Shown: in pieces, positions 33,709 through 63,543 of the stretch
Position numbering within the stretch: position 1 is the stretch's first letter
How the letters are laid out: every line of letters begins with the position of its first letter
From: Axinella damicornis
Lineage: Eukaryota; Porifera; Demospongiae; Axinellida; Axinellidae
Length of the DNA: 64,000 nucleotides
Direction of reading: 5' to 3'
Assembly (NCBI GenBank): GCA_963931865.1
Contig: OZ007518.1
Location: forward strand, 7,368,361 to 7,432,360
Position numbers and translations under genes: made by a program
The notes under the pieces: model-generated
Databases searched by the model: none
What the model saw: only the letters and a program-made list of their open reading frames with translations
Told to the model about the DNA's origin: nothing

Positions 33709-36677
33709 TCAGTTGATGAGGGCATAACCCAGTCTTGCGTTTCTCCTCGTCGGTGTACAAAAATCAACCAGTAACATTCCCAAAATTCCTAGAATGCCAA
33801 TCACTATCAAAGTTGCGGGAATTATGAGAACTTGGTATCGCTTCACAGTTTCTACACTGATGTGTGTAGTTGGTGGATCTACATCGTATGGAGGTGACGG
33901 GATTGCATATGCAAGCAGGCAAATATCTTTCCAAGCGCCAAAAAAGTTCTTATTGACGGCAAGCTCACATGGTTCGCCTTCAGTTACTGAACATACCAGG
34001 AAATGTTCATAGTCAGTGGAATTGAGATATACGACATTCGACGTGATGTTGTACTGATACGTTATACCACCAGGGCATTCTGCCGACATGAAGTAGTATG
34101 CATTTTCGCTCACTATAAACGTGATCTGTGAGCAGGCTGGGTGCTCCGGTGAACCAATCCTCAGTTCCTGCTGCATAACTGCCGTATCTCTGCCCTTTGT
34201 TATATCACTGATGTATTCTTGATATGCAAATAGCGAGTCAAAAACAAAGAATTCTGCCGAATTTGATAGAGATTGATTGGTCCATAGACAAATGTTGTAA
34301 CTTACATTGCTTCCTGGGAGCAAATATAGGTAATCCACTATTCCTAACGACCGTGTCTTGTATGTCAAGTAAAGTTCCCTACTCTGAAAGTGGCCTTGAA
34401 AAGAGTGTGTTTGAATATCCCCACATGGTACAGTGTAGAACTGGAGCTTGCGATTGCCATCACTTTGTTCGACATGCTCTGCAACCTGGTAGTCACGATA
34501 CCAGAATGCATTTGCTGATGTAAGGTGAAGTGTATCTCCTTGAAATGCTAAGCTGTGCTCACTATGGCTTGATGGATACACTGCAAGTACAATCAAAGAC
34601 GATACACCTACAAGCACGATGAGGAGCCATATAGAAAAGAAGCAACGCTCAGCACAGCACAATCTACTTTTCTTCCACTTGTACGGAATTGCTGCAGGAA
34701 GGGAAAAAAACCTGTATAAGCCAAAAGAGAGACAACATCCTGCTAGGTACACTGTTAAAATTAGGGTGCTCATTCGCATGTTCCAGAATGGCACCCTGGG
34801 GTACTGCAGTGGTTTCCATGGTAACCTTGGTATAAAACCAGGGTTTCAATGGATATGGAGCCACAGTCAATAAGATGTGTACAACAAATTGCCATATTGA
34901 AAAATTAATTTCTAGGGAAAAAGAACAATGAGATTCTTTGGAAACCAAGGTTGCCATGGAAACCAGTACCACAGTAGCAGGGTGCCATTCTGGAACATGC
35001 AAGTGAGCACCCCAATTTTAACGGTGTACACGTCATGCATGAACAGCATAGCTACTCTTCCTAGAATTCCATGTTCGGCGGAACCAATTAGTATCAAACA
35101 TAATATTATACATGTATGGCATGATCAGCATGTCATGGATATAACTGGTGGTCCATATAATATATCTCAGGTGACATAACTGTAGCTCTATATGGTAATA
35201 CACCCCTGGAACAAACTCTATATTCCATTATATATATGTAGCAGGACCCTGCATCTGGACAGTATATATTGGGATGGAATTCACTATAATGGGCCTTTGC
35301 TGTTTGAGTCCACGTGCTTGCAGCAACAAACTGGCCCGCAGGTTCCTCATGAGTTCACAGGTCATGGGTCATACAAACTTCCTCAAACAGTTACAGGAAG
35401 TGTGAATATTGTCACAACACCTACAAGCTCACACACAGAAGACTTAGAAATTTAATTTACAGTTATCAAAAGAGTTCTACCTATGCATCAGCCTGTCATG
35501 GAAATTAAGTGACACAATAATTGAGTGTGTCCCTGTACATGTCCGGTACATGCACCTTTAAGTTTCACGGTTCTCAAGTATTACGGGCTACAGTTTGTTA
35601 TTGCGCGTGCGTGGTGTGTGCTTGCGGTTTACGGTCAAAAGTGAAATGTGTGCGTGACTTTGGCGTCAGGTTTTTTTATCGCTGAAGTAACATCTAACGG
35701 TACATTAGACTGGACTTCAATTCTACGAAGAAAGCGGAAGGGCGGCTCGAAAAGTTTTACTGAGATAAGCATCCTGTTCGTGAGATACTGTGCGTTCTAC
35801 TTGCCTGATTGGGTGAAAAGCGAATGGCTTTGTGTTATGAACGACCATCCCTCATTTTTCCAACAGCAGCGAAGCGAACTCGCTCCGAGCCGCCCTCCAG
35901 GCCGTTGAAAACTTCCCATGGATGCTGCGCAAGCTGGCCTGTTAGCCCTTTCAGATTGCAAAATCTGATGCCAACTCGACCTTAAGCTTGAACTTTGATG
36001 CCACTGCCTATGTTGGCATGCTGTACTCAGGCACTAAGATCATACCAGCTAGAAGGTACTCATATTGCTGTTATATGTCGTTTTTGTTGCGTGTCCCTAG
36101 CTAGTTCCTGCACGGAGGGACGAAGGTAACTTTTACGTTATGTATATTTAATGAGCACACGGTATCCCGTAACCTTAAGCACCACCTGACAACACTATTA
36201 TGCATGGCCACAATGCATCCTGGTTTGGAGTTGATTGAACTATATTTATGTCATACATGGCTAGCCGAGCCTAGGTTTAATTGGAGTTGAGCCAACACAA
36301 GCACAAGATGGCATAATGTTGTTGAAACACAAATCTGTATGACAAGCAAAAACTAGCACTCCAATTGATAAAGTAAAAGAAGTTGCATGTTGTACAATTA
36401 AGTGACTTGTAATTGCTGTGGTCAGTAGTGGACATTATGGAAGCAACACAATACACAAGTGTTGAACCGTTGGCATGTGATGAAAAGGGTCACACTGCTA
36501 TCCAGCATTGAAGGGGTGTGCACTGTGTAGTGGTGTATCTCAGGCTATGTCCTGGGTTTGAATCCCACCACTAAGCCCTTGCTTATCGGTGGTTCGCCCT
36601 TTGCCCTTCCAGAAAAACAAGTTTGAGCAATGCCATTTATGGTAACTCAAGCAACTTCAGTGGTGATATCATCACCA

Positions 36678-36709
<32 letters not shown>

Positions 36710-36933
36710 AGTTAATGGGGCCCAGGACCTGCATGAAAACTTTCTGCATTGGAGATGTGGGTTATCAAATCTAATTACTGAACTGAACTGAACTAGCATC
36801 TACAACCCCAGGCGGTTTTCTAGGTACTGTCATATATAGTGTACTGTATACATGTACTGTACGCTCCACTCGTACTTCTGCTCGTAGATTCACCCAAGTA
36901 GTCAGTGCCAAGTTCAGCTGATTTCTTCTCCAT
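33709..36933 (-). CDS. Two-pass membrane receptor-like protein, module A minus gene
   Basis: Two exons: 36,933–36,858 (25 codons plus one base) and 34,691–33,709, joined in phase 1, giving 352 residues. The first exon encodes MEKKSAELGTDYLGESTSRS and a few more residues, a Ser/Thr-rich cytosolic tail. Exon 2 begins with a basic stretch (KWKKSR) and a membrane segment at about 43–63. An ectodomain follows with N-glycosylation sites (NVS, NQS, NIT, NST), conserved pairs such as YLYLLPGSNV and AYYFMSAECPGG, and cysteines. A second membrane segment lies at about 313–335, followed by a 15-residue tail. No known domain is recognised. The first-exon join rests on a weak donor (GTACAT) but matches modules B and C. 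It lies head-to-head with the DED gene at 38,325. Confidence 0.7.
34750..35026. mobile_element. MITE of the CACTGTTAAAATT family, in intron of minus gene A
   Basis: A 277-bp element is flanked by TA on both sides. Module C has the uninterrupted site (GCTAGGTACTCATCATGC near 56,766), so this copy inserted after modules A and C separated. It lies just upstream of the acceptor of the terminal exon. Open-frame extensions through this region come from the element. Confidence 0.85.
35029..36850. other. Intron of minus gene A, with an insertion absent from module C
   Basis: Most of this aligns with 56,770–58,030. The piece of about 35,580–36,173, bounded by TTACGGG and CCCGTAA, is missing in module C and is probably a transposon. 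It holds an 86-codon open frame (35,648–35,908) of unknown nature. A C31 run is at 36,679–36,709, and a tRNA-like SINE head lies near 36,522–36,585. Confidence 0.5.
36522..36585 (+). repeat. tRNA-derived SINE-like head, module A
   Basis: GTGTAGTGGTGTATCTC is followed by GGGTTTGAATCCCACC, which matches the pol III B box (GGTTCRANNCC) with one change. The cognate at 57,663–57,745 keeps ACTGGTAGAGTG as an A-box-like part. The sequence does not fold as an intact tRNA. A similar B-box motif occurs at about 38,178 and 59,195. Confidence 0.45.
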
Positions 36934-37335
36934 TCCTCACTCAGCGATCCAGGGTCAAACCGTTGAGAGACCGATTCGGACGACGGGAGTTTGTAGCGTC
37001 TACTGTTGATACACAGCACTGCAAAAAGGATATTATGCCATCCGGCCCGTGGGACTCGCCTGGAATGTGCGTGCCTTTAATTACATTTGTGTAAGAAGGG
37101 TGGCCGGCCGGGGCTCGCTTTTTTATTTCCGGGTACCCCTATCCCTGCCACGCCGTAGGGTGGAGCTCTTTCTTTTTGCTGTATCATTTCCGGGTGAAAC
37201 GCTTCGTTGATATAGTTTTGGCGTACTTCGGTGACTGACCAGACTAGAGTGACTGCGCCGACTACAATTCAGTTCGTAACGAACTTTGTTGGAAAGCTGA
37301 AATTATTTTGTACGCCTGACTTTCACGTCGTAAGT
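36934..37335. promoter_or_regulatory. Shared promoter region of module A pair
   Basis: This interval lies between the minus-gene start codon (36,933) and a probable 5' UTR donor of the DED gene (GTAAGTGTA near 37,330). ATTTCCGGGT occurs at 37,125–37,134 and 37,186–37,195; it contains the ETS-type core GGAA in reverse. Module C shows the same two motifs. The compact arrangement suggests bidirectional transcription. Confidence 0.5.
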
Positions 37336-38107
37336 GTATCCAAGTAAGCGTGTAGATGCGTATCACAATCAGCTTCAGAACCTTGTTATCATCAGTACAC
37401 TAATTCATTAGTGAGCTTGGTTCCAAGCTTTGTAGCGTAACGTAGTTGTACGACAGTTGAATTACATTTGAGGGGTAATTACAAGGACCTCTCGAGAGGA
37501 TAGTCTCTCTAAGTAACGTAATTCACGCACTGACTGGAAGTCCTCAGTCCACTGATGCAGTGCTCGGTACTGTTGGACTGGGATGAGTTGTATACGTGGG
37601 ATTCTGTTTGTGTTGCCAGTGGCAATAACAATCAAGTGAACATAACCACCAGCTGAGCTGATTGAAGATGCTCCTGACATTCCTTTCTTTGGGTTTCCAA
37701 TGGGCATAATTCTGTGATAACCAGCAGAGCTGATTGAAGACGTTCCAGAAGTTCTTTTGTTTGGGCTTCCAATGGGCATAATTCTGCTGCTACCCTGTAG
37801 TGTACTACAGTACTACTTCATATTCTACTGGCATAGTGACTACAGGCTATCAATGAGTATAGGTAATCCCCTCTGCTGAGTTGGTACATATTTGAGTTGA
37901 TTAGTATTATAATAATATCATTACCATGCATGGTTGCAACATGTGACCGTGGTGTAATCCCATACATGACAATTCATTACTATGGAGTGTAGCTATAGTT
38001 TACACTGCTTGTCACAACACTTTAGTATGAAGTGTGGTATTGGGCTAAATTGGAATTGGATATCAGAGTACGTGCTGCTATTATATTGGCTAGCTTGTAT
38101 GCTATAA

Positions 38108-38215
38108 TTCTTTGCTGTGGTGGAGTGGCTTATAATGATAAGGTGCTTCTGTGACTGGCATTCAAAGAGCGACTTGGGTTTGAATCACATGCAGGAATTT
38201 TTCCTGTGGATTCAA
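38108..38215 (+). repeat. tRNA-like repeat in the 5' UTR intron, module A
   Basis: GGTGGAGTGGCTTATAATG and, about 60 bases on, GGGTTTGAATCACATGC resemble A and B boxes of a Ser/Leu-type tRNA. A degenerate partner lies at 59,130–59,215. It is probably a SINE head rather than a tRNA gene. Confidence 0.4.
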
Positions 38216-38324
38216 CTTCCCTGTCTCTCAGCAACACTAGCTGTTCAGTATACATACCTACCAGCCAGCTTTATTATTTGGATGTCCTCTATAGCAACTG
38301 ACGCTGATACTCATTCTGTAGGAG

Positions 38325-41300
38325 ATGGATGATCCACATATGGAAGAAGACATTCAGAAGAAGCTCATCGGCTGTAATCGCATGATACCCGAGGGCAACC
38401 ATTACGTTGTTCCTTTCCTTAGTGCAGCTGTTGTTCCTCATGGTCTACTCTTTGGGAAGGATCTTGAATCGAATCCCACCGTTTCAGACACATTTATTGC
38501 TTTAGTGAATTACGCCAACACCCGTTGCTTTGCATTAGCGTTGATAAAGTTCGCATTAGAGAGATCGGGTTGTGCTGCTGAATCGATACGAGAGTTATGT
38601 GCTGCCTGCAGAAAAGCTGGTTTCCGAAAGTATCCTGAGTATGATGTTAGCGTACTTGAAAAGGAGCCATTCTTTGAACGATTTCAATTTCACAAAATGC
38701 TAGTAGATGTTTCAGATGCTCTCACAGGAGACGAAAGGCATAGGATGATCAATCTGGGCAGTGCCTTCATTAAAATGAATCTGGCCCACACAGATTCACT
38801 GCTCCTTCACTTCCTTCGCCTTCTTCAAGGAGATGTGATAGGTCCAGGAAATGTTTCTAAATTAAAGGAGTGGCTTGAAGACATTCAGAGAATAGATATC
38901 ATCAGTACTATTGATGGTTAGTTGAATTGTATATCTATGCAAACATTCCACATAGTATCGTCAATTTTTGGTGGCAGAATATCTACAGTTATTTCTTCGT
39001 TTAGAAACCCAGCAATGTCAAGAACTGAATGGTGAGCGAACACTCGGTGGACAACTTTATGCTGCACCTGAACAGGGTATGTGCATTTCTCATGAATCTC
39101 TATATATCCTGCATGCACCTTCCAGAAAATACCTTTATCTGACATGCATGTGGCCAGAGACTGCCCAGGAATCTTTGATAACAAGAATACGGATACAAGT
39201 ATTAGCCAATCTAAACAATTCACAGAATCGAATATTTTCATCAATGGTACACAGATACAGTGGTAGTGTAGCCTATAGGCCCTAAATTGAAAGCATGTGG
39301 ATAAGGCTAATAATAGTCCCAATTTTCCTGTTGAATTAACCTATGACTACATGTACTATAGTTCTAGAATGCCAAATAATGGACAGGTGTGATTGAAGAA
39401 TTGAACCTGTCAATTCCTATAGAGAGCAGAGGACATCATTATGGAATTGAAGAGCAAGGCGAAGCTCATGGTAAGCCATAGTACCGGTACATATTCACAT
39501 GTAGCTATCCAGTGTTCCAGCCTCATACGTATCTTTTTGCCATTTATGTCCAATTGCATGAGGAGTGATTAAATGCATGTGAATGAGGCTAATGATAGTC
39601 CCAAAATTTAATGATTTTTCCGTTGAATTAACCTATGACTAAAATTAACCATACAGAGTAATGATTGCTAGTGAGCTAGCTAGTTAACAGTAAGTAGTGG
39701 CCAGTACAGAAACAGTCAGTTCAAATGTAGATTCTGTATGTTCAACATACGAAACAAAGACACATTTGAATTTCAAGAAAATCGCAAAAGGGATATGTCT
39801 TTGAGCATATGAGAATAACATAATAGGCAAAGGAAAAAGCAAAGCCTAACACCCATGCCACTACTGGTCACGTGAATGCATTCATGACACACATCTGACA
39901 TGGAAGTCAGAACTGAATATCTCGAAGCTGAGTCAAACATCTGGAGATCAGTAAGGAACTGATACGTGAGTGTGTAACTGTGCCTCAGCCCTGGTTGTTA
40001 TTGTAGCATGCCACTGCTGCATAATCATTTGATGGACTCGTACAGTTATGTATGCAAAAAAAACATTACCAAGGGGGGCGCATTTTCACCCCCCTTACTC
40101 CCTGGCCCCCCTTAATCTGCCACTGCATCATGGCCTCCACTTTCATCATAATGATTGTCATAGTAGTGTTTGTTGTGATGCAAGTGAAACTACTTATACA
40201 AGATCTGCATGTAATAAATTATGTTTGTCGTTACATGTACATGCTTGTATTATACTGAAGAGAATGCATGAGCTTATGATCCTTATGCATATTAGTATGA
40301 TATTACCTCTCTACATATAGGACAAAGTCAGATGCAACAAGGCTACAGGTTCCATGGTACGTAATTTAGCAACCTGGTGAGCCCCATTAAATGTGAAAAT
40401 ACTAGAGTTACCCACTTCTATCTGATTAGAAGACAGTGTCATATCTCAGAAGGCTAGGTACCACTCAGAATGTTTTTCTGTTGTGAGTTTTGTGCTTGGC
40501 ACTGAACCTGTAATGTTGTGTAATCGCTACGTCACCCATCAGTTGATGCTTGCTAGAGTGTTACATTCCTTAAATCTATGCTAGGGTTTAGCTGTGATGC
40601 CAATGTGCACCCAAAAGAATCTCACCGTGTCGAAGTTGACAATCCAGTGCCTCGGAGAACAGTGGAAAAAGAGCAAACTGGTAGGCATAGACTCTGTACA
40701 ATGAATGTGATTAAAGTGAAAAGTGTGAAGTTTTCTGCTTGTAGCTATTGCTAGCAGTTCCTCACCTAGCTCATTTTCAGGCCATTGAACCCTTGGGTTG
40801 CTGTGATCCAACTATGCTCACAACGAAAGTGGGCATGGGGCCCCAGCAACTTAGCTGGAGGCCTGAGCAATGAACATTTTGAGTTAGGGTTTAAAGTTTA
40901 ATTACATGGGCACGTGGCGAGCTACTGCATGGCGGTTGCTTTCAGTGTCACGAGGTTGAGATCAGTGCGCAGCACAGTTTATTCAAGTGATTTCCTTCTT
41001 GCATTTGTCAGTAGGCTCTATAAAACTGCCCCAGAAGCAACCTGATCATGAGATGCCACTGATGCCTAGCCAACTTCAACATGCCGTCTAACAGTGGCTA
41101 TGCCACAGCCCACTGCGCAATATGGTCCTAATAAGCACGTTTTTGTAATATATAACCGCACCCACTCCTCATCATTGCCTTCAGCACTTGGAGCCATGCA
41201 GTAGAAGTGCTAAGTAGAAGTTATCAAATGACCTCATTCGTTTATAGATGTAGTGGGCTAACTATGTTCTGTGCACGATCAAACGTCTGACGTACTCAAG

Positions 41301-44300
41301 TGAAAGGTGGCAAGACGATGTGCTGCAGTGCACATAATGAATTACTGTTCTTCTGATTCAACTAGAAAAAGAATGTGGCACTACTTATGTTCATGGCCTA
41401 ACTCTTTCGGCTGGCAGGGATCCATCTACTGCACTGCGTGTCTCATGGGAGGTACATAATGATACTAATAGACTGACAAATTATAGATCTGTGGTCTTTG
41501 TGAAGAAAAACCTGGAATTGTCTATTCATGGATTACTTGACTAATCACTGTCTTGACATCCTTATCAAATTTCATTGTTGCATACATGTACCTATTCATC
41601 TACCCTTTGACCTCTGAAACATGAAGTGATTCATTATTGTTTTGTACTATATCTAATAATAGCCACCAGACCCTGGCTGCAACATCGAGGGATACCAGCT
41701 TCAGTACAGACAGCAGGAACATCCTGATTTCACTGTAGTCCCAGTGGATGAAGGCACAACATTCCATACACTTACTCACCTTCTGCCTGGCACCCATTAT
41801 GAATTCAGAGTGGCCATCTTTACCTCAGAGGGTTTGGAACCATACACTGGAATAACTACGGCAACTACAGGTAAATTGCAGGGGGTTATTTATGAAGTGG
41901 CTCTGTAAGAACACACTGAAAACAAGTTAGCTATTGCAATAACGATAATAATTTGAATGTTCTTCTAATCCAACTAGGACCAAAAGAACGTGGCGCTACT
42001 TGTGTTCGTGGCTTAACTCTTTCTGCCGGCATAGATCCATCTACTATGCTATGTGTCTCATGGGAGGTACGCGATGATGCTAACAGACTGACAAATAATT
42101 GCAGATCCATGGAAAGGGTCCATGATCTTATCTGTGGTGAACAACCCCCCCTTATAAAAGTTCATTGTTGCATGCTTGTGTTAAATCATCTACCTTTTGT
42201 CCTCTGTAGAGTGAAATGATTCCTTTTATTTTGGTTTTGTATTATAGCCACCAGACCCTGGCTGCAACATCGAGGGATACCAGCTTGAGTACAGACAGCA
42301 GGAACATCTTGATTTCACCGTAGTCCCAGTGGATGAAGGCACAACATTCCATACACTTACTCACCTTCTGCCTGGCACCCATTATGAATTCAGAGTGGCC
42401 ATCTTTACCTCAGAGGAGCTGGGACCATACACTGGAATATCTACTGCAACTACAGGTAAACTACAAGGGGTTAGTTACAAAGTGGCACTACTGAAATCAA
42501 ATTTTTTGACAATAATAAGTTTAATTTGTCCCCAGTGGAGACTATAATTGGAATTCCAGGATTCTGTTGCTATGGCAATGATAACTGTGATGAGTTACGG
42601 CCTACTAAATTTCCATTCTCTCCCATTAACATCCTTGTCCATTATATTAATGGATGTGCCTCCGACAACATACACTTCAAATCTGAGAAGCAGCGTACCT
42701 AGCCTCATTCCCAGGCTCATCCCCAGCAGCTTTAGCCTCAATCCCAGGCTCATCCCCAGCAGCTTTAGCCTCATTCCCAGGCTCATCCCCAGCAGCTATA
42801 GCCTCATTCCCAGGCTCATCCCCAGCAGCTATAGCCTCATTCCCAGGCTCATCCCCAGCAGCTTTAGCCTCATTCCCAGGCTCATCCCCAGCAGCTATAG
42901 CCTCATTCCCAGGCTCATCCCCAGCAGCTTTAGCCTCATTCCCAGGCTCATCCCCAGCAGCTTTAGCCTCATTCCCAGGCTCATCCCCAGCAGCTTTAGC
43001 CTCATTCCCAGGCTCATCCCCAGCAGCTATAGCCTCATTCCCAGGCTCATCCCCAGCAGCTTTAGCCTCATTCCCAGGCTCATCCCCAGCAGCTTTAGCC
43101 TCATTCCCAGGCTCATCCCCAGCAGCTTTAGCCTCATTCCCAGGCTCATCCCCAGCAGCTATAGCCTCATTCCCAGGCTCATCCCCAGCAGCTTTAGCCT
43201 CATTCCCAGGCTCATCCCCAGCAGCTATAGCCTCATTCCCAGGCTCATCCCCAGCAGCTATAGCCTCATTCCCAGGCTCATCCCCAGCAGCTTTAGCCTC
43301 ATTCCCAGGCTCATCCCCAGCAGCTATAGCCTCATTCCCAGGCTCATCCCCAGCAGCTTTAGCCTCATTCCCAGGCTCATCCCCAGCAGCTTTAGCCTCA
43401 TTCCCAGGCTCATCCCCAGCAGCTTTAGCCTCATTCCCAGGCTCATCCCCAGCAGCTATAGCCTCATTCCCAGGCTCATCCCCAGCAGCTTTAGCCTCAT
43501 TCCCAGGCTCATCCCCAGCAGCTTTAGCCTCATTCCCAGGCTCATCCCCAGCAGCTTTAGCCTCATTCCCAGGCTCATCCCCAGCAGCTATAGCCTCATT
43601 CCCAGGCTCATCCCCAGCAGCTATAGCCTCATTCCCATGCTCATCCCCAGCAGCTATAGCCTCATTCCCAGGCTCATCCCCAGCAGCTTTAGCCTCATTC
43701 CCAGGCTCATCCCCAGCAGCTTTAGCCTCATTCCCAGGCTCATCCCCAGCAGCTTTAGCCTCATTCCCTGGCTCATCCCCAGCAGCTTTAGCCTCATTCC
43801 CAGGCTCATCCCCAGCAGCTTTAGCCTCATTCCCAGGCTCATCCCCAGCAGCTTTAGCCTCATTCCCAGGCTCATCCCCAGCAGCTATAGCCTCATTCCC
43901 AGGCTCATCCCCAGCAGCTATAGCCTCATTTCCAGGCTCATCCCCAGCAGCTATAGCCTCATTCCCAGGCTCATCCCCAGCAGCTATAGCCTCATTCCCA
44001 GGCTCATCCCCAGCAGCTTTAGCCTCATTCCCAGGCTCATCCCCAGCAGCTTTAGCCTCATTCCCAGGCTCATCCCCAGCAGCTTTAGCCTCATTCTCAG
44101 GCTCATCCCCAGCAGCTTTAGCCTCATTCCCAGGCTCATCCCCAGCAGCTACAGCCTCATTCCCAGGCTCATCCCCTGCAGCTTTAGCCTCATTTCCAGG
44201 CTCATCCCCAGCAGCTTTATGTCGCATATAATATTATTACAGTATGCGACAAAAAGCTGGGGAGGAGGAGGCTGCAGCCTACCTGCAGGGTAAAGGATGG

Positions 44301-45992
44301 GTTGTTGGGTTGTCACTACCGTGCAGGGCATTAACCTGGAATTCCGGATAATGTCTCCTACAAATGTTAACATTTAGCTGGACTATGGTATGCATAATGT
44401 GCTTTGATCTTTTGAACTTAATGAGGTTTCTAAGATCCATTATTATTTCGTACAGATATAACCCGTAGTCTAAGCCGGTTATTGCTCTCGAGCAGGTCTC
44501 TTAGCTGTTTAGAGACGTTTGGGATGCACCTAGAATCACCTCAGGCTTCGCCCTCAGGTCTCTAAAACAGCTAAGAGACCGGCCTGCTTGCATGAGTGCA
44601 ATAACCTATACTTATGAGATGATACCATATGTGTCCCATGGATGTGAGTCGTGACAGCCATCTATGGGCAAACATCACTACGGAGTATGTCAACACAAGA
44701 GCTTGATGGTTTACTTAGACCACAAATAGGGCTACACATGGGCACTGGATGTGAACTATAGTTTTCATAACTATATAGCTATACGTACCTAGAACAAAGT
44801 AGATTGACAGCCATTGTAGCAACTAGGATTACATCTCTTAAACTTAGTTGAGCAAGTTGAATACTCAGCAGTGAAAAGGTTTTGATTTCAGTCTGATTGT
44901 GCATTGTCTAAGTGTACGTCATATAGAGTGTGAAACAGTAATGACAGCTAGTGTATGTATATAATACTTAGTGGTTTATTTTCCATCCTTTAATTTTACT
45001 ATGCAGGTCCAGTAGTGAAGAGTAAGAAGTTCTCTGCAATAGTGTGTATTGTTATATTTGGATTACTGTTCGGAATGTTAGCTTCCTCTGCAATCTTTGC
45101 ATGGCTTGAGACTTACCCAGCCATGCAGGGCCAAGTCGTCCTCCATAGCAGTGAAGCAGTAATGGTACAACATAACGGCTTCGATCCATTCCATTATACG
45201 AGAGTGACATTCACGAAGAACCGATCCACCGACAATGGACATGTTCAGTTCTACATGCAGCTATGCAGTGATCTCATGGCAAACACAAGAGACATCCACA
45301 CTAGTGTTACACACATCAACCAGTCAGTTGATGAGAGTTCTAGATTTAGAATTGGTTCTTACTATTTGGTAACAGGCTCAGATGTTCTTTTCAGCGTCAA
45401 CATCACAGCTCATACTGAACTGCCAACCTGCTCAGCAAGTTTATACATCTTCCGAGATTATCTTGCTTATAGTAACTTCTTAGCTGATGGTTCTGACACT
45501 GGCAACGCAAGACAGATTTGTTTGCTCATATCAAATGAAACATCCATGATAGATCGTCACCCTTCATACTCATTCGTTGCTGATGAAACGTCATACTACT
45601 TCATTGGCCTTTCCGTTCCGAGAGGAAGTGATGGTGTTGACGATATATACTACCAAACAACGGGTAGACAGCTGTACTACACTACTGGCAATCTTTCCCT
45701 GGCTTGTAGTATAGTTCCTGGTACAAACTCCAGCTGTTATGTTCCCTTAGCTGCTAGTGAGCCTATTGCAGGACGTACAGAGTGCTTCCTTGCTGTCACT
45801 AACAGTAGCCCAGATGATGGTTTATACTTGAACTACTCCTCTTCATCAATGCCTAATCCATTGCATAACATTGCAAGAATTTTCACAGGACTTGTTTCTC
45901 TTCCTGTGTTCTCTTTGCTCTTCACTGTAACCATAATAATAACATTGTATGCTGTTTGTCGATCTAAACGTAAGCAGTACAGTATGAGCTAA
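38325..45992 (+). CDS. DED–FN3–FN3–two-pass membrane receptor, module A plus gene
   Basis: Eleven coding exons: 38,325–38,916; 38,978–39,076; 39,423–39,470; 40,321–40,356; 40,585–40,680; 41,366–41,451; 41,663–41,870; 41,978–42,066; 42,248–42,455; 42,536–42,694; 45,007–45,992. All joins are phase 1 except the phase-0 introns inside each FN3, and the model gives 868 residues. Residues 5–95 are helical and death-fold-like. A DED spans about 119–195 (FHKMLVDVSDAL, then WLEDIQRIDII). Short polar linkers follow (VEVDNPVP). FN3 domains lie at about 291–388 and 389–487 (PPDPGCNIEGYQLQYR, LPGTHYEFRVAIFTS). A small Cys-rich exon contains GFCCYGNDNCDE. TM1 (549–573), an N-glycosylated ectodomain, TM2 (834–857) and a short basic tail complete it. 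Topology would put the DED and FN3s in the cytosol. The role as a death or immune receptor is inference. Confidence 0.72.
40061..40125. mobile_element. Transposon end remnant in an intron
   Basis: CCCCCTTAATCTGCCACTG is the inverse of a CAGTGGCAGATTAAGG-type terminal repeat, similar to the end seen at 63,544. Only this end is recognisable. Confidence 0.4.
42700..44222. repeat. Minisatellite, 33-bp unit, about 46 copies
   Basis: The unit is TAGCCTCATTCCCAGG followed by CTCATCCCCAGCAGCTT, with T/A variation giving CTTTAG or CTATAG. The array is very homogeneous. It lies in the last intron of plus gene A, starting six bases after the donor of the 42,536–42,694 exon. The unit matches the terminal repeat of the MITE at 17,511–17,595, and the right edge (GCGACAAAAAGCTGGGG, 44,245) is the inner part of that element. 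Since 33 is divisible by three and the unit lacks stops, both strands stay open for over 500 codons. No protein is inferred. Confidence 0.93.
44477..44606. mobile_element. MITE with GGTTATTGC ends
   Basis: GGTTATTGCTCTCGAGCAGG at the left matches the inverse of CCTGC…GAGTGCAATAACC at the right. The inner GTCTCTTAGCTGTTTAGAGAC and GTCTCTAAAACAGC stretches also pair. The element is 130 bp, non-coding, and lies in the last intron of plus gene A. Confidence 0.7.
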
Positions 45993-47854: not shown

Positions 47855-50130
47855 TCACTGGATGCTTGCATAACCCTTTCTTGTAAATCTTCCTTTAAGT
47901 GTACAGAACCTAACTAGCAGCACACCTAGGATTCCTATAATACCAATGATAATTAACGCTGTGGGAATTACAAGGACTTGATATCTCTTCACAGTTTCTG
48001 CATTTAAGTGTGTAGTTGGTGGATCTGCACTGTATGGAGGAGATGGAATTGCATATGCAAGAAGGCAAATTTCCTTCCATGAACCAAAAGCGTTGCTATC
48101 AATAGCCAGCTTGCATGGTCGGTCTTCTGCCACTGAGCAAATCTGGTTGGTTTCATAGTCTGTAATATTCAGGTACTTCACATTCGACGTTATGTTGTAC
48201 TGGTATGTTACTCCACCAGGGCAGTCTGCTGACATGAAGTAGTACGCACTTTCTTTTGCTCGAAAGTTGATCTGTGAGCAGGCTGGATTTTTGGCTGAAC
48301 CGATTCTCAGTTCCTGCTGCATAACAGATGTATCTCTGCCATCCGTTACATCACCAGCAAAGTCCTGATATGCTGATAGTGAGTCGAAGACAAAGAATTT
48401 GGCCACTGAAGTTGTAAGAGTTTGGTTGGTCCACAGGCAAATGCTGTAAGTCACATTGCTCCCTGGAAGTAGGTACAAGTAATCCACCACACCCAGCATG
48501 TGTGTTTTGTACGTCAGGTAAAGCTCCCGACTTTGAAAATGTCCTTGAAAACTGTGTGTTTGAATATCTTGGCACGGTACCGTGATGAACTGCAGCCTGC
48601 GATTATAGTCACCATACTGAACAGATTCTGCTACATTATACTCACTGTACCAGAATCCATTTGCTGATGTAACGTAGAGTGTGTCACCTTGGAAGGCTAG
48701 ACTATTCTTGCTGCGGCTGGGAGGATACAATGCAAGAACAACGAAGCATAAGAGTCCAACAAGAACGACCAGGGACCAAACAACGCTGCAGCAAAGCCTG
48801 GGATGATGGAAATTACTGCAATTTGGTGTGTTTAAAGACGTAGGAACATCTGTGGAAAGAGATTTGATGATGAAACAACTACATTCTTAAAATATCAAAA
48901 TTCATGGACTGATAACAATAAGGAATTTTGTTCATGCCACCCACATTATATAGCTAGCTACTGCATGTTGCGTGTGTATGTATGAAGTGTAAAATTATTT
49001 TACCATTACAGGCCTATGCGTGTAGCACATAATCATTGCAATGTTGATATCTCTCATGTAAGTTTCCTAGGAATAACAGGATATAGCTTTATCTCCGACC
49101 ATGTACATATCCATTGAGTGACTCACACATTGGTACAAGGCTATGATTAATGACCCCTCACCAGGCAGGGATATATGATTGCACACCGACTACATGAACT
49201 ATCTTTGTATATAGCTCAGCTATTAACAGAACTATCATCAGTCGATATCAAGAGTTCAATCTTGCACTACGATCTATAATTGTGATCTATCTGCTATGCT
49301 AGTTAGACCCTTCCTGTTTGGTATCCCACTATAGGGAATCTACCCTCACAATCAAATATTATATGTCCTTACAACCCGGTCTGTACTCTGATGCAGAAGA
49401 CAAGCATATGTGGGTAACAGCGCTTGTGCACTATCACTCTTAACCATCATGCTAAACAAACTAGCTAGTTGTATCATGGTAAAACACCACTAGTATGACA
49501 TTCACAATTTCTTTCTAAGGACATGAAACAGCTTGCCATATACCTTGCCATCCAGATGCAATGAACAATGCCAACTTAGAACAAAGGAATATATCTCAGG
49601 ACTGTATCACACACATACAAGAGCATGAACAAGAGATAATTTATGTGCTGTGGGTGTGGTTTCATTTTAATTTCTTACTCTCTCGCACTTCTGGTCAGTT
49701 AGCTTTCATGACGTTACGTGTGGAGTTTAGTTTACTTCCCGAAAGGTGGATTTGTATGTACCCCTAATTTGCTGTGAGGATAACTACTTATCCATTGTTC
49801 TTGCACGATATCATGCAGCCAATTCCATTTCGTTGGTGTTGAATAATATATCAGCATTGCTGGCATGCATGGTGGCATTCCAGTAACTATACATGCATTT
49901 TCCTGTAAAGTACATGTATCAGTAGACAACAATATGCAAGCATACAGTTGCATTGTTTGTCATAACTCAATGCAGTAGCCCACCGGACATCGACGGTGCG
50001 CTTGTGTGGCTGTTGGCTACGGCTACACGATTGACATATTAATAGATGCTAGCTCACCGTCATCGTATGGTCGTGTGGTCGTAGAATCACACCAACCAGC
50101 CGTGCCTAACGGTGCAGATTTCTTCTCCAT
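47855..50130 (-). CDS. Two-pass membrane receptor-like protein, module B minus gene
   Basis: Exon 1 is 50,130–50,058 (MEKKSAPLGTAGWCDSTTTR and four more codons) with a strong donor G|GTGAGC. Exon 2 is 48,849–47,855. They join in phase 1 to give 355 residues. TM1 follows a short cytosolic tail (CCSVVWSLVVLVGLLCFVVL). The ectodomain carries YLYLLPGSNVTYSICLWTN, MQQELRIGSAKNPACSQI and YYFMSADCPGGVTYQYNIT. TM2 is YQVLVIPTALIIIGIIGILG. The tail ends KGYASIQ. The frame is fully open and similar to modules A and C throughout. The independent match of the MEKKSA start, with a good donor, supports the first-exon model in all three genes. No known domain is recognised. Confidence 0.75.
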
Positions 50131-51418: not shown

Positions 51419-54400
51419 ATGGATAACCCCCCAGAGGAGCAAGAACATCTCTACCAGGCACTGTATAATTGCAACCAAAGTTTATCCGATGATAATCGCT
51501 TTGTTGTTCCATTTATCTGTGTGTCTGCTGTTCCATATGGGCGACTCTATAAGGAAAACCTCGAAGACATCCCCACAGTTACTGACACGTACAATGCTTT
51601 GCTAAATTACGACAAAACCAATCCAGTTGCAATTTCACTGATAAAATATGCACTGCACATTGCTGCATGTCCTTCTGAAAGGATTGAGCAGATAGAGGGT
51701 GCCTCTGTTCAAGAAACAAGCCTGCATGGAGACCACAATGATGAGATCAGTCGAGGTTTACGATTTCACAAACTACTCATAGATATCATCAATGGCCTAC
51801 CTTCAAATCTGAAACGCCAGGTGATAAGCGCAAGCAGTGGCCACCTTTTGAGCAATCCCATCCACACAGAATTACTCCATGTTCAGTTTCTCCAACTTAT
51901 CCAACGAAATGTAATTGGTCGAAGGGACGTGACCAAACTGCACGATTGGATTGAGTCAATTGCAAGGAATGACATCCTGGATCTGATTGACAGTTACAGT
52001 TCAGAAGTTGAAGTTCCCGTTTTACCCAGAAAAGGTATGAGTTTTTCCTGTGTGCCGGATTATTAAGTTATAAGTGAATAATGGCTGTATCATCTGATAT
52101 TTCTTATGTGTACATAGCTATTCAGCCTCCAACGGAAAGGCCACTAGCCGAAGGCATCTATCAACAACCCATACAAGGTATTAACAATGTGCAGTTATGA
52201 ATAAGATTATCGTTTATACTGAGGCCTTCCTAATGTGATCAACTGTCTGATCAACTGGCACAAATGCACCATCCATTCTGATCCCTATGCATGGTCCAAC
52301 ACACCTTATATGTTTGATATGAGAATTTCATTGTTTATTCTTTATTAGAAACTGAAAGAGAAACCTCTGGACCTAGGCCTGGTGAGATTGAAGATTAATG
52401 AACTCTTTACCGACCATAAGAAACAGCTTAAGGAAGCAATACTCTGTATTAAGGTCTAACACTGACCAATTAGGTTGGTGGTCAATACTAGCCACAAAGT
52501 ACTCTCCCTTTAATTAACTCTCTAGCTCCTATACTCAGTCCTACAAAACATGTACAGCATACTCACTACTTCCCTTACAGCCATAAACCGAAGTTGGGTG
52601 CATAATATGGAACCCCATATTGTTGAACGGGACAATCCAACTGGACCCACCCAGGACCGAACTGAACTTGATTCATGTGCAAATGGTGGTGATCATGCTG
52701 GTATGTTAATGGTATTAGTCCATATTAAGTTATAACCACCCCTTAGCAACCACAGACTGCAGCACCAGTCATGAGATTCACAGGAGAAAAAAAACCACCT
52801 GAAGATACGGACTAGACGGGCACCGTAACCATCCGTATCCCCCCCATCCGCACGCCCGTCGAGTCCGTAATAATACTAAGAAGTCAAAGTGGTCCCACGA
52901 TGGACTCGAACAGCGTGTGGATGGTGCAGTCACGGAGCAACTTTGACGACAATGGTGCCCGTCCAGTCCCGTATCTACAGCTAGTTTCTCCTGTGATTTT
53001 GAGACTTCACACTTGTTGTTGGATGTAGCACTAGCTATCACTGGCTGATAGGTTTTACCCCAACAGAATATGGCATGGCTGGCCGGACTCTGTTCAACTG
53101 ATAGAAGCATTCTTTGCAGCTGGGGCACGTAGCCATCATCCCAAATAAGGTGTTTCTACTTGTAATGTTTCCATTTCCAGTGACCAGAATATTACTAGCT
53201 ATATCACAGATGTGGCAGCCTGAGAACGAAAGTGTAAGATGCGATGAGATGATTGAGATTGTGGGCACATACGCATATGAATGTGCCACATTGAGCAGCA
53301 TGTTTGCATTATCTCATATTCTAGGTGAGCCAGAACGTACAGCCAGTGCTACTGCTATGCCTTGTCATAAAGGTAAGATCCACATGGAAAAATACCTGTA
53401 AATGTGGGTCTGGATGAGCACCGTAATCTTCAAAATTTCTCCATGATTTCACCGTCAGCTCACCCATTGAGTCTGTTGTATATAGGAACACTTCGCCTTT
53501 GATATTACAGTGTTATTTTCTGTGTAAGCCATGCCTAGGACACTCACTCCTCTAAGCAGTGGAATCGCTGAAAACTCCAAATGTGAAACTTCAAGTGTTC
53601 CCACCAAGGACTAAAATGCGTGAGCGGACGGTGTTGACACACGGTCCCCGCCCAGTGCATGCAGTTTTTCCTGTGATCTGAATCAATCAATGTATACCTT
53701 CAGATGTATCTTGGAGATTATGGTGAGAAGAGACTGGAAGACTACATCATAACCGATTACTTTACTTGATGATTTTTCCAGCACTTAGCAAGTTCTGGGA
53801 ACCCTTTGGGGAGTAACAATTGGGCAACCACAAGTAATGAATATGATTTGTAGTAATTTAATACTCATATCATTGTTCGTGATTGTATTCATTGGCATTT
53901 ATGTATAGTATCTCACTGTACTCCAGGCTATTTCTTTATTACCCCGTGCGCATGCACAGCAGGGGGTAGAGTGATCGGTTTGTCTGTCAGTCTGTCCGTC
54001 CAAGCGGTTTGAGCAGTGAAGGCCTCGTTGAAGGCTTATTTCAGGATAGAAGTGTCAGAATTCAGAAAATACTAGCGTCGACATAACTCACAGACCAGAG
54101 ATCTACTCGAGAGGCTGAGAAAAGCTGTGTGAAAGTCGGGCTTCTAATTTATACAACTTGACCGCACCCTATTTCTAACATTACTGCCACAACTTAAGGT
54201 ATCTCATTCTGCATGCTGACAAGGCTGACATCGCTGTAAATCATGGCCTAGCTAGCTCATCGTGCATGCTGTATGAATAATCGGTGGTAGGCCTAGAGCT
54301 GTCAAGTCAAAGTTGCACACGGGGTACATGCATGCTCTGCTGAGCACCTCTAGCTGTTACATTACACGATATAGACAGAGACAGTATTGTGTATTCTTTC

Positions 54401-55459
54401 TTTTAATCACCTCAGGTCGAAAGAAGAAATCCTGTGTTCTGATATCATTGCCCACCATACTGGTTGCAATTTGCTTCATTATATTTCTCGTGTTCGAATT
54501 TTATCCTCCTAAAAGCGGCCATACCATTCTTCAAGCAAATGATGTAGTGAGACTATCCAGCCACGGCTTTGATCCATTCCACTATACAAATGTGACAGTT
54601 ACAAGAAACGACTCTAAGACACCTGTCGTTGATGCAAGCCGAGTGAAATTTTATCCGCAGACATGCAGCAAATTGGTACCAAGCCACCGACCCATCCGCA
54701 CCAAAGTAACACACATTGATTCCAGTAGTGAAGACCGCACTTTTTTTTGTCTTTCAGGGATATTTACTGAAGGGCTCTAACGTCTCTTTTGATGTGAACA
54801 TAACAGCTCATACAGAGTTTGCAAAGTGTTCAGCAGCTCTATACATCTTTCAGAATTACGAATGCTTTGGTAACTTTCTAAACTTTGGCATAGATGTGAA
54901 TGATTGCAGTACAAGACGAACATGCCTGCGTATTTCCAGCACATTAGATCAGCAGCCACCGTATGTCTTCACGGCTGACGAAACATCGTACTATTTCGTA
55001 GCGCTTTCTACCCCCAGTGGCACTGAGGGTGTTGATGATATTTACTTTCAAACGACTGGTATGCAACTGTACTATACAACAGACGACCTTCCACCTGATT
55101 GCAGTATGATTACTGGTATCAACTCCAGCTGCTCTATGTCATTACCTGGTAGCCAAGCAGTCCAGGTGTCCCTCGGAAACACTGTATGTGTGCTTGCAGT
55201 CATGATAGCAGACAGCACTGATACTACTAGTTCTGAGAACAATACAGTGCCTACTTACCTGACCTACTCTTCGACAACTGCCCGTAATCCTGTGCACAAC
55301 ATTGCAAAAATTGTAACATTGTTAGCTATCATCACTATATTGATTGTTGCGACTGTTACAGTAGTTGTGTTTTGTACATGTATTTGTTGCTCTAAATGTA
55401 TATCTAGGGGTCATCCCTACCAGGAACTGCCCACTGGCCTAAACCCAGTCCATGAGTGA
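51419..55459 (+). CDS. DED two-pass membrane receptor, module B plus gene (frameshifted)
   Basis: Exons: 51,419–52,034; 52,118–52,177; 52,349–52,381; 52,581–52,700; 53,181–53,372 (or to 53,324); 54,416–55,459. All joins are phase 1. Exon 1 holds a helical death-fold-like region and a DED (FHKLLIDIINGLPSN, then WIESIARNDILDLID). The linkers are polar. The 53,181 exon is of unknown type (MWQPENESVRCDEM). The last exon encodes TM1 (SLPTILVAICFIIFLVF), an ectodomain with HGFDPFHYTNVTVTR and DETSYYFVALS, and TM2 (IVTLLAIITILIVATVTVVV). It has no FN3. A one-base length error in a run of eight T at about 54,741 breaks the ectodomain frame. Both sides match module A, so it is either a sequencing error or a recent loss-of-function allele. 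Confidence 0.62.
52778..52996. mobile_element. MITE with TCACAGGAGAAA ends
   Basis: A 219-bp element has outer inverted ends TCACAGGAGAAA/TTTCTCCTGTGA and inner pairing of GACGGGCACCGT with ATGGTGCCCGTC. Related fragments lie at about 53,385–53,675 and 18,108–18,150 (GAGCAACTTCAACGATAACG). It lies in an intron of plus gene B. Confidence 0.7.
53380..54415. other. Last intron of plus gene B
   Basis: It contains a decayed relative of the TCACAGGAGAAA element (53,385–53,675) and a repeat beginning ACCCCGTGCGCATGCACAGC at 53,941, followed by TCTGTCAGTCTGTCCGTCC. No FN3 exon like those of module A was found here. Confidence 0.45.
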
Positions 55460-55696: not shown

Positions 55697-58108
55697 TCAG
55701 TTTATGAGGGCATAACCCTTTCTCTTTGTGGGCATCCATAAATAAACCAGCAACATTCCCAGAATTCCTAGAATGCCAATGACTATCAAAGTTGCCGGAA
55801 AAATGAGAACTTGATATCTCTTCATCGTTTCAACATATATGACATTGTGTGTAGTTGGTGGATCTGCATCGTATGGAGGTGACGGGATTGCATACGCAAG
55901 CAGGCAAATATCTTTCCAAGAACCAAAAAAGGTCCTGATCGATGACAAGCTCACATGGTTCGCCTTCAGTTACTGAAAAATACCAGGAACTGTTCATAGT
56001 CGGTGGAATTGAGGTACATGACATTCAACGTTATGTTATACTGATACGTTATACCACCAGGGCATTCTGCTGACATAAAGTAGTATGCACTTTCGCTCGC
56101 TATGAACGTGATCTGTGAGCAGGCTGGGTGCTCCGGTGAACCAATCCTCAGTTCCTGCTGCATAACTGACGTATCTCTGCCCTTTGTTACATCACTGATG
56201 TATTCCTGATACGCAAATAGCGAGTCAAAAACAAAGAATTCTGCCGAAGTTGATAGAGATTGATTGGTCCAGAGACAAATGTTGTAACTTACATTGCTTC
56301 CTGGGAGCAAATAGAGGTAATCCACTATTCCTAACGACCGTGTCTTGTATGTTAAGTAAAGTTCCCTACTCTGAAAGTGACCTTGAAAAGAGTGTGTTTG
56401 AATATCCCCACATGGTACAGTGTAGAACTGGAGCTTGCGATTGCCGTCACTTTGTTCTGCAACCTTGTAGTCACGATACCAGAACGCATTTGCTGATGTA
56501 AGGTTAATCGTATCTCCTTGAAATGCTAAGCTGTTTTCACTATGGCTTGATGGATACAGTGCAAGTACAATCAAAGACGACACACCTACAAGCACGATGA
56601 GGAGCCATATAGAAACGAAGCAATGCTCAGCACAACACAATCTACTTTTCTTCCACTTGTACAAAATGGTAGGAATTGCTGCAGGAAGGTAAAAACCAAC
56701 ACATTTTGAGCACAGGCACTGCACGTGCATGTAATAACCTACCCAAAAGAGAGACAACATCCTGCTAGGTACTCATCATGCATGAAGTTATGAACAGCAT
56801 AGCTGCTCTTCATAGAATTCCATGTTGGGTAGAGCCAATGAATACTGTATGGCATCAGCCTGTCATGGATATAATTGGTGGTCCATATATATATCTCAGG
56901 TGACATAACTGTTTCTGTATAGGGTGTTACTAACTACACCCCTGAAAACAAACTCTATATGTAGCAGGCCTTGCATTTGGACAGTATATTGGGATGGAAT
57001 TCGCTAATGCTCCCAAATAGGCCTTTGCTGTTCAGTCATTTTTGAGTCTACATGTTTGTGTATGCAGCAACAAACAGGTCCTATGAGTGTCATTCTGGCT
57101 ATACCCACGGGTTCCTGATGAGTTCACAGGTCATGCAAACTTCCTCAAACAGTTATATACAGGAAGCTAGTGTGAATATTGCCAAGCTACAAGCTCACAC
57201 ATCGCTTTGAAATTACATTCATCAAAAAGAGTTCTACTTCAGTCTATGTATGGTATCAGCCTCTCATGGATACAAGTGATATAATAACTGACTGTGTCCC
57301 TGTACATGTCGGGCACACTTTTAAGTTCGTTCTCAAGTCTTAGTAAGCACTGACTAAGCACACTATTATGCATGGTCACAATGCATCGATTTGGAGTTAT
57401 CTTTATGCCCTAGGCGGTTAGCCGAGCCTAGGTTTGATTGGAGTTGAGCCAAACACAAGCACAAGATGGCATAATGCTGCCAGTTAGAACACAAATCCGT
57501 ATGACAAGCACTCAAATCGCAAGTCGCAAGTTGTATGATTGATTACTTAGCAAAGTTACTGCGGTCAGTGGTGGACATAATAATATGGACGCAACACAAT
57601 CACAAATTATTGAACCATGTGATCAGAAGGGTCACTGCTATAATAACATTGAAGGGGTGTGCACTGTGCAGTGGTGTACTGGTAGAGTGAAAGGTTCATC
57701 TCGGGCTATATAGCCTGGGTTTGAATCACACTAAAGCTCTTGCTTATTGGGTGGTTCGCCTTAAAAAGGAATTTGCCCTTTGTCCTTTCAGAAAGACAAG
57801 TTTGAGCAATGCCATAACTGAAGCGAGTTCAGTGATGACATCACCACCATCCCGTTATTGGGGCCCAGGGCTTGCATGGAAACTTTCTGCATTGGAGATG
57901 TGGCATTCCTGGGTTATCAAAATCTAAACTGAACTGAACTGAACTAGCATCTACAGCCCCAGTCAGTTTTCTTGGTACTGTCATATAATTATAGGTAGTT
58001 TAGTCTACGGTACTGATTGTACTGCTACGCACTGTACGCTCCACTCGTACTTCTGCTCGTAGATTCACCCAAGTAATCAGTGCCAAGGTCAGCTGATTTC
58101 TTCTCCAT
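55697..58108 (-). pseudogene. Two-pass membrane receptor-like, module C minus gene, frameshifted
   Basis: Exon 1 is 58,108–58,033 (MEKKSADLGTDYLGESTSRS) with donor GTGCGT. Exon 2 is 56,678–55,697. It is very close to minus gene A. Compared with A there is one extra base near 55,974 (run of T after CTGGTA) and a second near 55,935 (before the TTTTTT run). The reading therefore stops at VFFSN, about 240 codons into exon 2, and the last third, including TM2, is in another frame. Two separate indels argue for decay rather than a single sequencing error. A truncated, membrane-anchored ectodomain could still be produced. Confidence 0.65.
56761..58030. other. Intron of minus gene C
   Basis: It aligns with the intron of minus gene A but lacks the MITE (34,750–35,026) and the insertion of about 590 bp (35,580–36,173). 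It includes the tRNA-like SINE head at 57,663–57,745 with ACTGGTAGAGTG and GGGTTTGAATC. Confidence 0.5.
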
Positions 58109-59334: not shown

Positions 59335-60478
59335 ATGGATGATCCACGTCTGGAAGAAGACATTCAGAAGAAGCTCATTCAATGTCATCGCATGATACCT
59401 GAGGGCAATCAATACATTGTTCCCTTCATTTGTGCAGCTGCTGTTCCTCATGGTCGACTCTTTGGGAAGGATCTTGAGTCGAATCCCACTGTTTCGGACA
59501 CATTTATTGCTTTAGTGAATTACGCCGACACCAGATGCTTTGCATTAACGTTGATAAAGATCGCATTAGAGAGATCAGGTTGTGCTGCTGAATCAATACG
59601 AGAGTTATGTGCTGCCTGCAGAACAGCTGGTTCCGCAAAGTATCCTGAGTATGATGTTGAAAAGGAGCAATTTTTTGAGAGATTTCAATTTCACAAAATG
59701 CTGGTAGATGTTTCAGATGCACTCCTGGGAGACGAAAGGCACAGGATGATCAATCTGGGCAGTCCCTTCATCAAAAAGAATCTGGCCCACACTGATTCAC
59801 TTCTCGTTCACTTCCTTCACCTCCTTCAAGGAGATGTGATAGGTCCAGGAAATGTTTCCAAGCTAAAAGAGTGGCTTGAAGACATTCAAAGGAGAGATGT
59901 TGTTGACGGTTAGTTGAATTGTGTATCTATACTACTGTTGCATTCTACATAATCAGGAATTCTTGGTGGCACAATTATCCACTGCAGTTGTTTCTTCCCT
60001 GCGTTGTCAAGAACTGAATGGCAAGCGAACACTTAGTGGACAACTTCATCCACCACCTGAACCGGGTATGTACATTTCTCATCTCTATACCGTGATGCAC
60101 GTTTAGTTCCATGGTAGATAGCTACCTGTTGCTGACATGTATGTGGCTGAGACTACATTTTGGAATGTTAATGGTTAAAAATGTTGGTGTGTGCTTCACA
60201 TGTGTGCTTCAGGTCCAGTTCCCCAACATCTTCCTACCACAGTATCCAGTGGAAAAGCCCACACACAGTGACACAGGATCAAGCCTAAAATCTGAGTGTG
60301 GGAAACCTAGCGTCCCAGCCAACTAAACATTGAGTAACAATATTGCACCAGGACTGTCCGACTGTTCTCATAATCTTAAATCTTGTCCAGAGTACAGACC
60401 TACTGTCATACAGGTACACTGTATGTGGCTCATAGTGGAAAAAAGATGGGGAGGGGGCATGCCAGTTGCCGAGAGATT

Positions 60479-62215: not shown

Positions 62216-62256
<41 letters not shown>

Positions 62257-62753
62257 TGCCACTAACTCATGCACAACCTCTGTGCCTATATTATTATAAG
62301 CAACTTCAGCATCTTGTGTAACCACACCCACTCATCAACACTGCCACCTCATTTTCCTAGCTGACAGAAATGGACCTAAGCTTGATCACTGGGAGCCTTG
62401 TAGTAGAAGTGCAAACATGCAAACAGTATATACAAAGTTATCGAATCATATTTTTTGTTTGTATTAACATTGAATGATTCTGTGAACAAATTAATGTGGG
62501 CAAAGACGATGTGCTATGGAATTATACTGTTCATCTAATCCAACTAGGTCGTGACACTAACGTTCGTTCTGCTGGCAGAGGGCTACAAGAACGATACAAT
62601 GGAAAAGATAGATGTATGTTGCAGGTGGTTGTTTACGAAGTGGTACAGTAGGAACTCACTGTATAATATATTATGTCCCCAGAAGTTTAAGAGACCTCCC
62701 CAAAAGTTTCTTTGCAATAGTAATGACAATCCATTCACTTGTGATCCCATGCA
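59335..62753 (+). CDS. DED receptor, module C plus gene, partial
   Basis: Supported exons: 59,335–59,908 (MDDPRLEEDI; DED with FHKMLVDVSDALLGD and WLEDIQRRDVVD); 59,988–60,065; 60,989–61,036; 61,404–61,445; 61,660–61,746; 61,989–62,060. All are in phase 1 and all are paralogous to module A linker exons. The linker exon with DNPV is present twice. Possible further exons are 62,548–62,632 and 62,686–62,753. The FN3 exons of module A are missing except for a degenerate trace at 62,548. The membrane–ectodomain exon expected from A and B is not reached before 64,000. Length and functional state therefore remain open. Confidence 0.62.
60480..60527 (+). repeat. Poly-C run (48 C)
   Basis: An uninterrupted C tract lies in an intron of plus gene C. 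A G tract of 36 lies at 62,219–62,254 and a C tract of 31 at 36,679–36,709. Such runs are unstable and often mis-sized in assemblies. Proline-rich open frames across them are artefacts. Confidence 0.9.
62219..62254 (+). repeat. Poly-G run (36 G)
   Basis: An uninterrupted G tract lies between GTTCGGGGAG and CATGCCACTAAC, in a late intron of plus gene C. The flanks share GCATGCCAGTT-like words with the C tract at 60,480, suggesting related origins. Confidence 0.9.
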
Positions 62754-63543
62754 GGTAGGATGCATCTGAGATCCGATGTATGCATATAATCAGTGCCGAC
62801 ATTCAGAACACGTTTCCAACAACGGTTTACAGTGCAGCTTTGCAAATTGGAAAGCTTTTTCCATTAATCAAGAAGGTTTCTTCCGAAGATACAGAAGGCT
62901 TGTAGCGTTGCAAAGAGTGCTGACTTTGAATGCCCCTAAGTTTCTGAACAACAGTGTGGCTTCACTTACTGATCTTTGGGATTTCATTTGGGCCTTTCAT
63001 AGCTGCATTTATCTGGAACCGTGACGGAAGTTGCTCCACAAACTTACTTCATTAAAAACATGTACTGTATGGTGTCTGACTTACAACCTATACACAATTT
63101 CCATTCCCTCCCATCAAAATTCTGAGTCCGTTATATTTATAGACGTGCCTCTGACAACATACATCTAGTTCACTTCAAATCTGAAATGCAGTGTGGTGCA
63201 CCCGAAGGGTGCAAACAGCATGGGAGGGTCTGGGCTTAGTCATGAATAGCCCTTGGTTGGAGCTGCAAGGGTGAACCATTTCTCAGGTTTTAAGCATAAA
63301 TTGGCCTAGAAACAAAGGTCTCACCTTGTATTGCCTCGAATTGCAGTGTTCAAGTCTCATTTTTCTGCTAGAGCGAGTTACCATTGCCCGAGCACCAAAC
63401 TGGCATGGAAGTTTACTTAGACCACAAATAAGTGGCATGATATCCAATTTTCATGTGAACTGCAGCACTCATAACTATCCTATGAACAAGTAAAGTTCAC
63501 CACCATTGTAGCACCTTCAGTTGTTGTAGTAGCAATACTAGTA
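62754..63543. other. Decayed counterpart of module A exon and flank
   Basis: An 82-codon open frame at 62,776–63,024 has no recognised domain. At 63,095–63,185 the text AATTTCCATTCCCTCCCATC, followed later by GACAACATACATC, aligns with the Cys-rich exon of plus gene A (42,600–42,690). It carries in-frame stops and a small insertion, so this exon is dead or replaced in module C. Confidence 0.5.

Follow-up and report, generated by a model that had tools for sequence, protein, structure and literature searches.

The well-known death receptors reach caspases with death effector domains (DEDs) by way of death domains and FADD, and vertebrate activating and inhibitory paired receptors are clustered, with related ectodomains and unlike cytosolic parts. 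Oysters have single-pass DED-TRADD-N transmembrane receptors, and the sponge Amphimedon has many TRADD-N proteins with death-like domains (PMC8195603, in the text available). The plant APD1-4 proteins are reported to be RING ligases that span the membrane and associate with V-ATPase and Rab; the accessible part of PMC13210498 gives their substrates as unknown. Plant NLRs such as RRS1/RPS4 are encoded as head-to-head pairs, for which functional co-dependence is reported (PMC9528088, in the part available). Here we describe a cluster of paired genes in the sponge Axinella damicornis, first noticed in a 64-kb window (the whole stretch of DNA that was analysed; C14:7368361-7432360) in a 10.8 Mb contig of the 226 Mb genome; the adjoining 48 kb was also read and is numbered in continued window coordinates, 64001-112000. 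In each pair a minus-strand gene (A) for a two-pass membrane protein faces a plus-strand gene (B) that joins a DED exon to a homologous membrane unit. Our reading, held with a little less than even confidence, is that B serves as a membrane-anchored receptor signalling through a tandem DED, and that A, which lacks the DED and is sorted to endolysosomes, is a partner that tunes B.

Searched against the genome, the terminal exons of A2 and B1 place the close family at about C14:7402075-7474949 (~73 kb), with two distant relatives outside the cluster, at C3:12284340 and C14:4319416. The original prediction, made from the letters of the window, was of a cluster of three pairs; the three pairs stand, but the cluster is larger and reaches about window coordinate 107034. 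It holds six A genes on the minus strand and five full B genes on the plus strand, forming five divergent pairs, in the order A1 B1, A2 B2, A3 B3, (B3b), A4 B4, (A relic), (B5b), A5 B5, A6. The relic is a set of A-like pieces near 83.1-83.4 kb, on both strands. B3b (about L039 6325-7316, one frameshift as assembled) and B5b (L041 7960-9009) are extra terminal exons of B type, and a DED exon was found for neither. With its intact frame and a retained acceptor-like site, B5b may be spliced to a different first exon.

The A gene model has two exons in all six copies, and a phase-1 GT/AG intron can be drawn in each; the splice sites of all gene models were picked by eye. Exon 1 provides 24-29 whole codons and starts with MEKKSA in four copies, MEKKTA in A5 and MERKPA in A6. 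Exon 2 encodes a transmembrane helix, an ectodomain and a second transmembrane helix (TM-ectodomain-TM), giving five intact A proteins of 352-356 residues. Within the window, all on the minus strand, A1 has exon 1 at 36858..36933 (MEKKSA N-tail, predicted to be cytosolic, with a phase-1 donor) and exon 2 at 33709..34691 (C-tail end GYALIN); A2 has its MEKKSA N-tail at 50058..50130 and exon 2 at 47855..48849 (C-tail end GYASIQ); A3 has its MEKKSA N-tail at 58033..58108 and exon 2, with two frameshifts as assembled, at 55697..56678.

Each of the five B genes has three exons, with phase-1 joins. The first, which carries the DED, contributes 191-205 whole codons; a linker of 18-22 residues follows, and the last exon encodes TM-ectodomain-TM. 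The four intact full B proteins have 543-574 residues. The exons, all on the plus strand, lie at 38325..38916, 39023..39076 and 45007..45992 in B1, at 51419..52034, 52118..52177 and 54416..55459 in B2, and at 59335..59908, 60012..60065 and 64518-65524 (past the window, in L039) in B3; the first exon of each probably holds a tandem DED. The exact acceptor of the linker exon, which is phase 1 on both sides in B1, is uncertain in B1 and B3, and the terminal exon of B2 is broken once as assembled, at a T run near 54740. The original prediction had MEKKSA-tailed minus-strand two-pass genes facing plus-strand DED-first genes on the same plan in all three modules. Phase-1 joins are found in all three and the layout holds; the B3 terminal exon, however, lies beyond both the window and the predicted end of the cluster (63543), A3 and B2 are frameshifted, and the linker exon had been overlooked. 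The long B1 intron also contains, at about 41366-42455, two fibronectin type III (FN3) domains, each over two exons with phases 1-0-1 by eye; they are not in the other copies and, if spliced in, would lie on the DED side of the membrane.

There is protein-level constraint on both strands; the pairs are real genes. Nei-Gojobori dN/dS, calculated with the broken terminal exons of A3, B2 and B3b excluded and with B4 and B5b included, is 0.17-0.29 for the A terminal exon in 10/10 pairs of the five intact copies. This range, together with the phase-1 junction in 6/6 copies, disposes of the objection that the minus-strand exons are antisense artefacts. The DED exon gives 0.19-0.42 in 8/10 pairs (two are saturated) and the B terminal exon 0.15-0.55 in 9/10 (one is saturated and several have dS above 2). 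Values for the MEKKSA exon are 0.19-0.61 in 13/15 pairs, an exon too short to carry much weight. Of the pairs in the window only the first is unbroken, given the two frameshifts in A3 and the single one in B2; outside the window, pairs 4 and 5 are intact as well. The broken frames of A3, B2 and B3b may be due to read errors or mark pseudogenes.

The DED of B is recognised by Pfam (hmmscan) in B1 (E 1.8e-8, 34.9 bits), B3 (2.4e-7, 31.3) and B2 (3.8e-5, 24.3), all below the curated cut-off of 35.9 bits. A six-frame genome search scores B1 at 35.9 and B3 at 31.8 bits; the 38 DED matches listed do not include B2, B4 or B5. The match lies in the second half of the exon in B1, and a structural model (of the B3 copy) and profile comparison point to another DED in the first half, so that where a single DED had been predicted the exon probably holds a tandem DED of caspase-8/FLIP type. 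As in caspase-8, c-FLIP and viral FLIPs, the probable tandem DED occupies one N-terminal exon; its phase-1 end is seemingly shared with two loci of this genome where a tandem-DED exon is followed by a caspase exon. B differs from caspase-8 and FLIP in being a membrane protein without a caspase domain: none of the 37 Peptidase_C14 matches in the genome is inside the cluster. The two caspase-linked loci, on contig C4, stand tail to tail (L068 599-3910, plus strand, and 8748-4889, minus strand), each with both exons on one strand, and look like caspase-8-type genes. Contig C77 carries 9/37 caspase-domain matches, a caspase array.

This likeness gives B a possible role as an inhibitor: as a membrane-anchored FLIP-like tandem DED, it would retain caspase-8 or FADD at the membrane and block signalling until ligand releases it. 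We consider this improbable. It fits a probable tandem DED that has no caspase domain, as in viral FLIPs, which are among the 13 closest matches; a constrained ectodomain on a transmembrane protein speaks instead for an action driven by ligand, though the sign of the effect is not separated by the data. The oyster receptors resemble B in their extracellular domain, membrane span, cytosolic DED and lineage-specific expansion, but have one TM helix, a Cys-rich ectodomain placed first and a TRADD-N domain beside the DED (PMC8195603, in the text available). Pfam gives no TRADD-N match to E 1 in three of the five B DED exons, and no TNFR repeat or Death domain in three DED exons and nine of the 13 terminal exons (A3 and B2 in part, here and in the Pfam scans below).

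The TM-ectodomain-TM units of A and B are homologous (profile E 2e-9, with one control comparison), in keeping with the predicted divergent paralogues, one signalling and one not, that share this unit. No Pfam family matches the A or B terminal exons above cut-off in the 9/13 scanned. The APD1-4_M profile finds six places in the genome, none of them inside the cluster, and APD1-4_N finds three. A link is provided by the relative on contig C3 (L016), which passes the APD1-4_M cut-off (30.1 against 25 bits) and matches A2 at 2.4e-16; by eye, its TM-ectodomain-TM exon likewise comes after an N-tail exon and an intron in phase 1. Against three loci found by the APD1-4 family (L061, L062 and L066, two of them 98% alike), the B profile gives E 2e-6 at 89% probability and the A profile E 9.8e-4 at 22%. 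The A/B ectodomain thus appears to be distantly related to that of the plant APD1-4 RING E3 ligases (PF16040/PF16041), which share the TM-ectodomain-TM plan and a possible endomembrane setting. The plant proteins have a RING finger, which Pfam does not find in the 9/13 A and B terminal exons scanned, where the C-tails past the second helix are short; the DED exon is found only in B. By eye, the tails of L061 and L062 are rich in proline and include a PPxY-like stretch, and a locus on contig C5 (L067 687-3209, minus strand) is one open frame of 840 residues with, seemingly, two APD1-4-type ectodomains between membrane spans.

Structure prediction of the ectodomains had been suggested in the original prediction. 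The AlphaFold model of A2 exon 2 alone (pLDDT 71, pTM 0.54, eight sequences) has a beta-rich ectodomain between two helices; its core, residues 82-214, is a beta-sandwich that matches GOLD, CBM, Eph and viral jelly-roll folds equally well. P2X, ASIC and TMEM206 channels also combine a two-pass plan with a beta-rich ectodomain, so the unit could in principle be a channel, gated by ligand or by mechanical force, in which A and B are the subunits and the DED provides the link to death signalling. This is very improbable. The two-pass plan, the predicted cytosolic position of both ends and the beta-rich ectodomain fit a channel, but the core resembles jelly-roll, GOLD and CBM sandwiches, the family link is to APD1-4 ligases, and sequence searches find no channel family, which is weak evidence.

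The N and C termini of A and B are predicted to be cytosolic; K/R counts favour cytosolic ends in 7/10 proteins at the first helix and in 8/10 at the second. All five intact A proteins end in GYxxI, which is absent from the five intact B proteins. We take this ending to be a LAMP-like sorting signal, and A is therefore probably sorted to endosomes or lysosomes. The V-ATPase and Rab associations of APD1-4 are consistent with such an endomembrane link, without being proof of it. YxxPhi motifs are absent from the last 30 residues of B1, B3 and B5b; B4 and B5 have YQEL there. The original prediction likened the pairs to activating and decoy or inhibitory paired receptors; inhibition of the ITIM type is not supported, as the pattern is present in one of the five intact A tails (A1). 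A decoy or tuning role for A is possible. A and B share related ectodomains and unlike cytosolic parts with vertebrate paired receptors; they differ in the single ITIM-like tail and in having no demonstrated Ig or lectin fold.

In the proposed receptor-and-partner system, one TM-ectodomain-TM unit would serve both partner types, with B having exchanged the short N-tail exon for the tandem-DED exon and linker. On binding ligand or clustering through its ectodomain, B would seed DED assemblies that take in FADD- or caspase-8-like proteins, and these would start cell death or inflammatory signalling. A, consisting of the outer part and membrane spans with no signalling domain, would join mixed complexes with B or compete for its ligand, and so limit, sequester or remove B, for example by routing it to lysosomes. 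Of this system, the sequence establishes the coding exons, their architecture, the A-B homology, a DED in B and the layout of the cluster; membrane topology, the first DED, DED signalling, A-B contact, co-expression, a shared promoter and the direction in which A acts are inferred.

The gene arrangement is consistent with co-expression of the partners. Start codons in pairs 1-5 are 1392, 1289, 1227, 2378 and 1370 bp apart, so that partners are divergent neighbours with a short intergenic region; the A1/B1 gap (36934..38324, about 1.4 kb, no strand assigned) is a candidate shared promoter region. RRS1/RPS4 are likewise divergent related pairs with an extra domain in one member and a shared intergenic region (PMC9528088, in the part available). 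They differ in being intracellular NLRs without homology to A or B and in their reported functional co-dependence, which for A and B would be a prediction. The genes fall into two types: type I comprises A1, A3, A6, B1 and B3, and type II comprises A2, A4, A5, B2, B4 and B5. Identity of the DED exons is 37-39% across types and 86-96% inside a type. Terminal-exon dS between types is 0.97-1.27 for A and above 2.3 or saturated for B, and within types it is 0.05-0.29 (B5b excluded).

Several observations weigh against a partnership. Block copies run across gene borders: 50687-56695 matches 100574-106638 (92.7% over 6.2 kb), 51386-55481 matches 76862-80971 (95%) and 76805-80971 matches 101251-105423 (96.0%). 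Because these blocks span several genes, the divergent layout of neighbouring modules is mostly inherited by duplication. Pairing is indeed kept in all three modules of the window, as predicted, but several pairs are block copies and this is weak evidence of selection; since only the type I/II split is old, the independent retentions number about one or two, not three. A6 has no partner gene (the one DED-like trace opposite it, at 108151-108303 with E 0.28, is no better than chance). This lone gene, together with B3b and B5b, which have no DED, speaks against a strict dependence between A and B. Tail-to-tail spacing is even shorter than head-to-head, at about 240 bp for B2/A3 and B5/A6.

A and B may thus be independent, B as a DED signalling receptor and A as an endolysosomal membrane protein with its own task, placed head to head by an ancestral inverted duplication that was then copied in blocks. 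This is a credible possibility, short of probable. Besides the blocks, the solitary A6 and the incomplete B3b and B5b, it is favoured by the gap comparison, in which type I and type II pairs share no intergenic sequence, and by three relatives on contig C6, the only ones whose neighbours were read, which are all on the plus strand. It explains less readily why the same A/B layout is present in both old types and why the two partners belong to one type in each of the five full pairs. B2 and B5 are nearly identical throughout their 3' parts, including the intron (52400-55480 and about 102350-105440), while the B2 frame is broken; this points to a recent conversion or copying event.

A broader form of the receptor-and-partner reading is doubtful. 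It would make this a new animal class, in which two-pass receptors with their own tandem DED nucleate caspase-8-type assemblies at the membrane without a death-domain or FADD relay, each paired head to head with a brake that has no DED and is sorted to lysosomes; phase-1 shuffling of a caspase-type tandem-DED exon onto an APD1-4-like receptor would have given rise to the class. The original prediction knew of no described family with this plan. In the literature covered, which excludes most subscription journals and was available in part, tandem DEDs are not described in any two-pass receptor, nor the APD1-4 ectodomain in any animal study; the ectodomain is, however, distantly APD1-4-like, and single-pass DED receptors are described from oysters (PMC8195603, in the text available). 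If true, such receptors, with the tandem DED built in, would represent another, perhaps early, wiring of sensing to caspases. They would also give an animal signalling context to an ectodomain otherwise known from plant ligases, and allow divergent pairs of sensor and brake genes, as in plant NLRs, to be tested in an animal.

Two repeats were also noted in the window. A minisatellite at 42700-44219 consists of 46 copies, with 97% matches, of a 33 bp unit in which several frames of either strand are open. About 11 kb of the left part of the window is present twice in direct orientation (855-11820 and 20478-31554), in pieces that are 78-92% identical.

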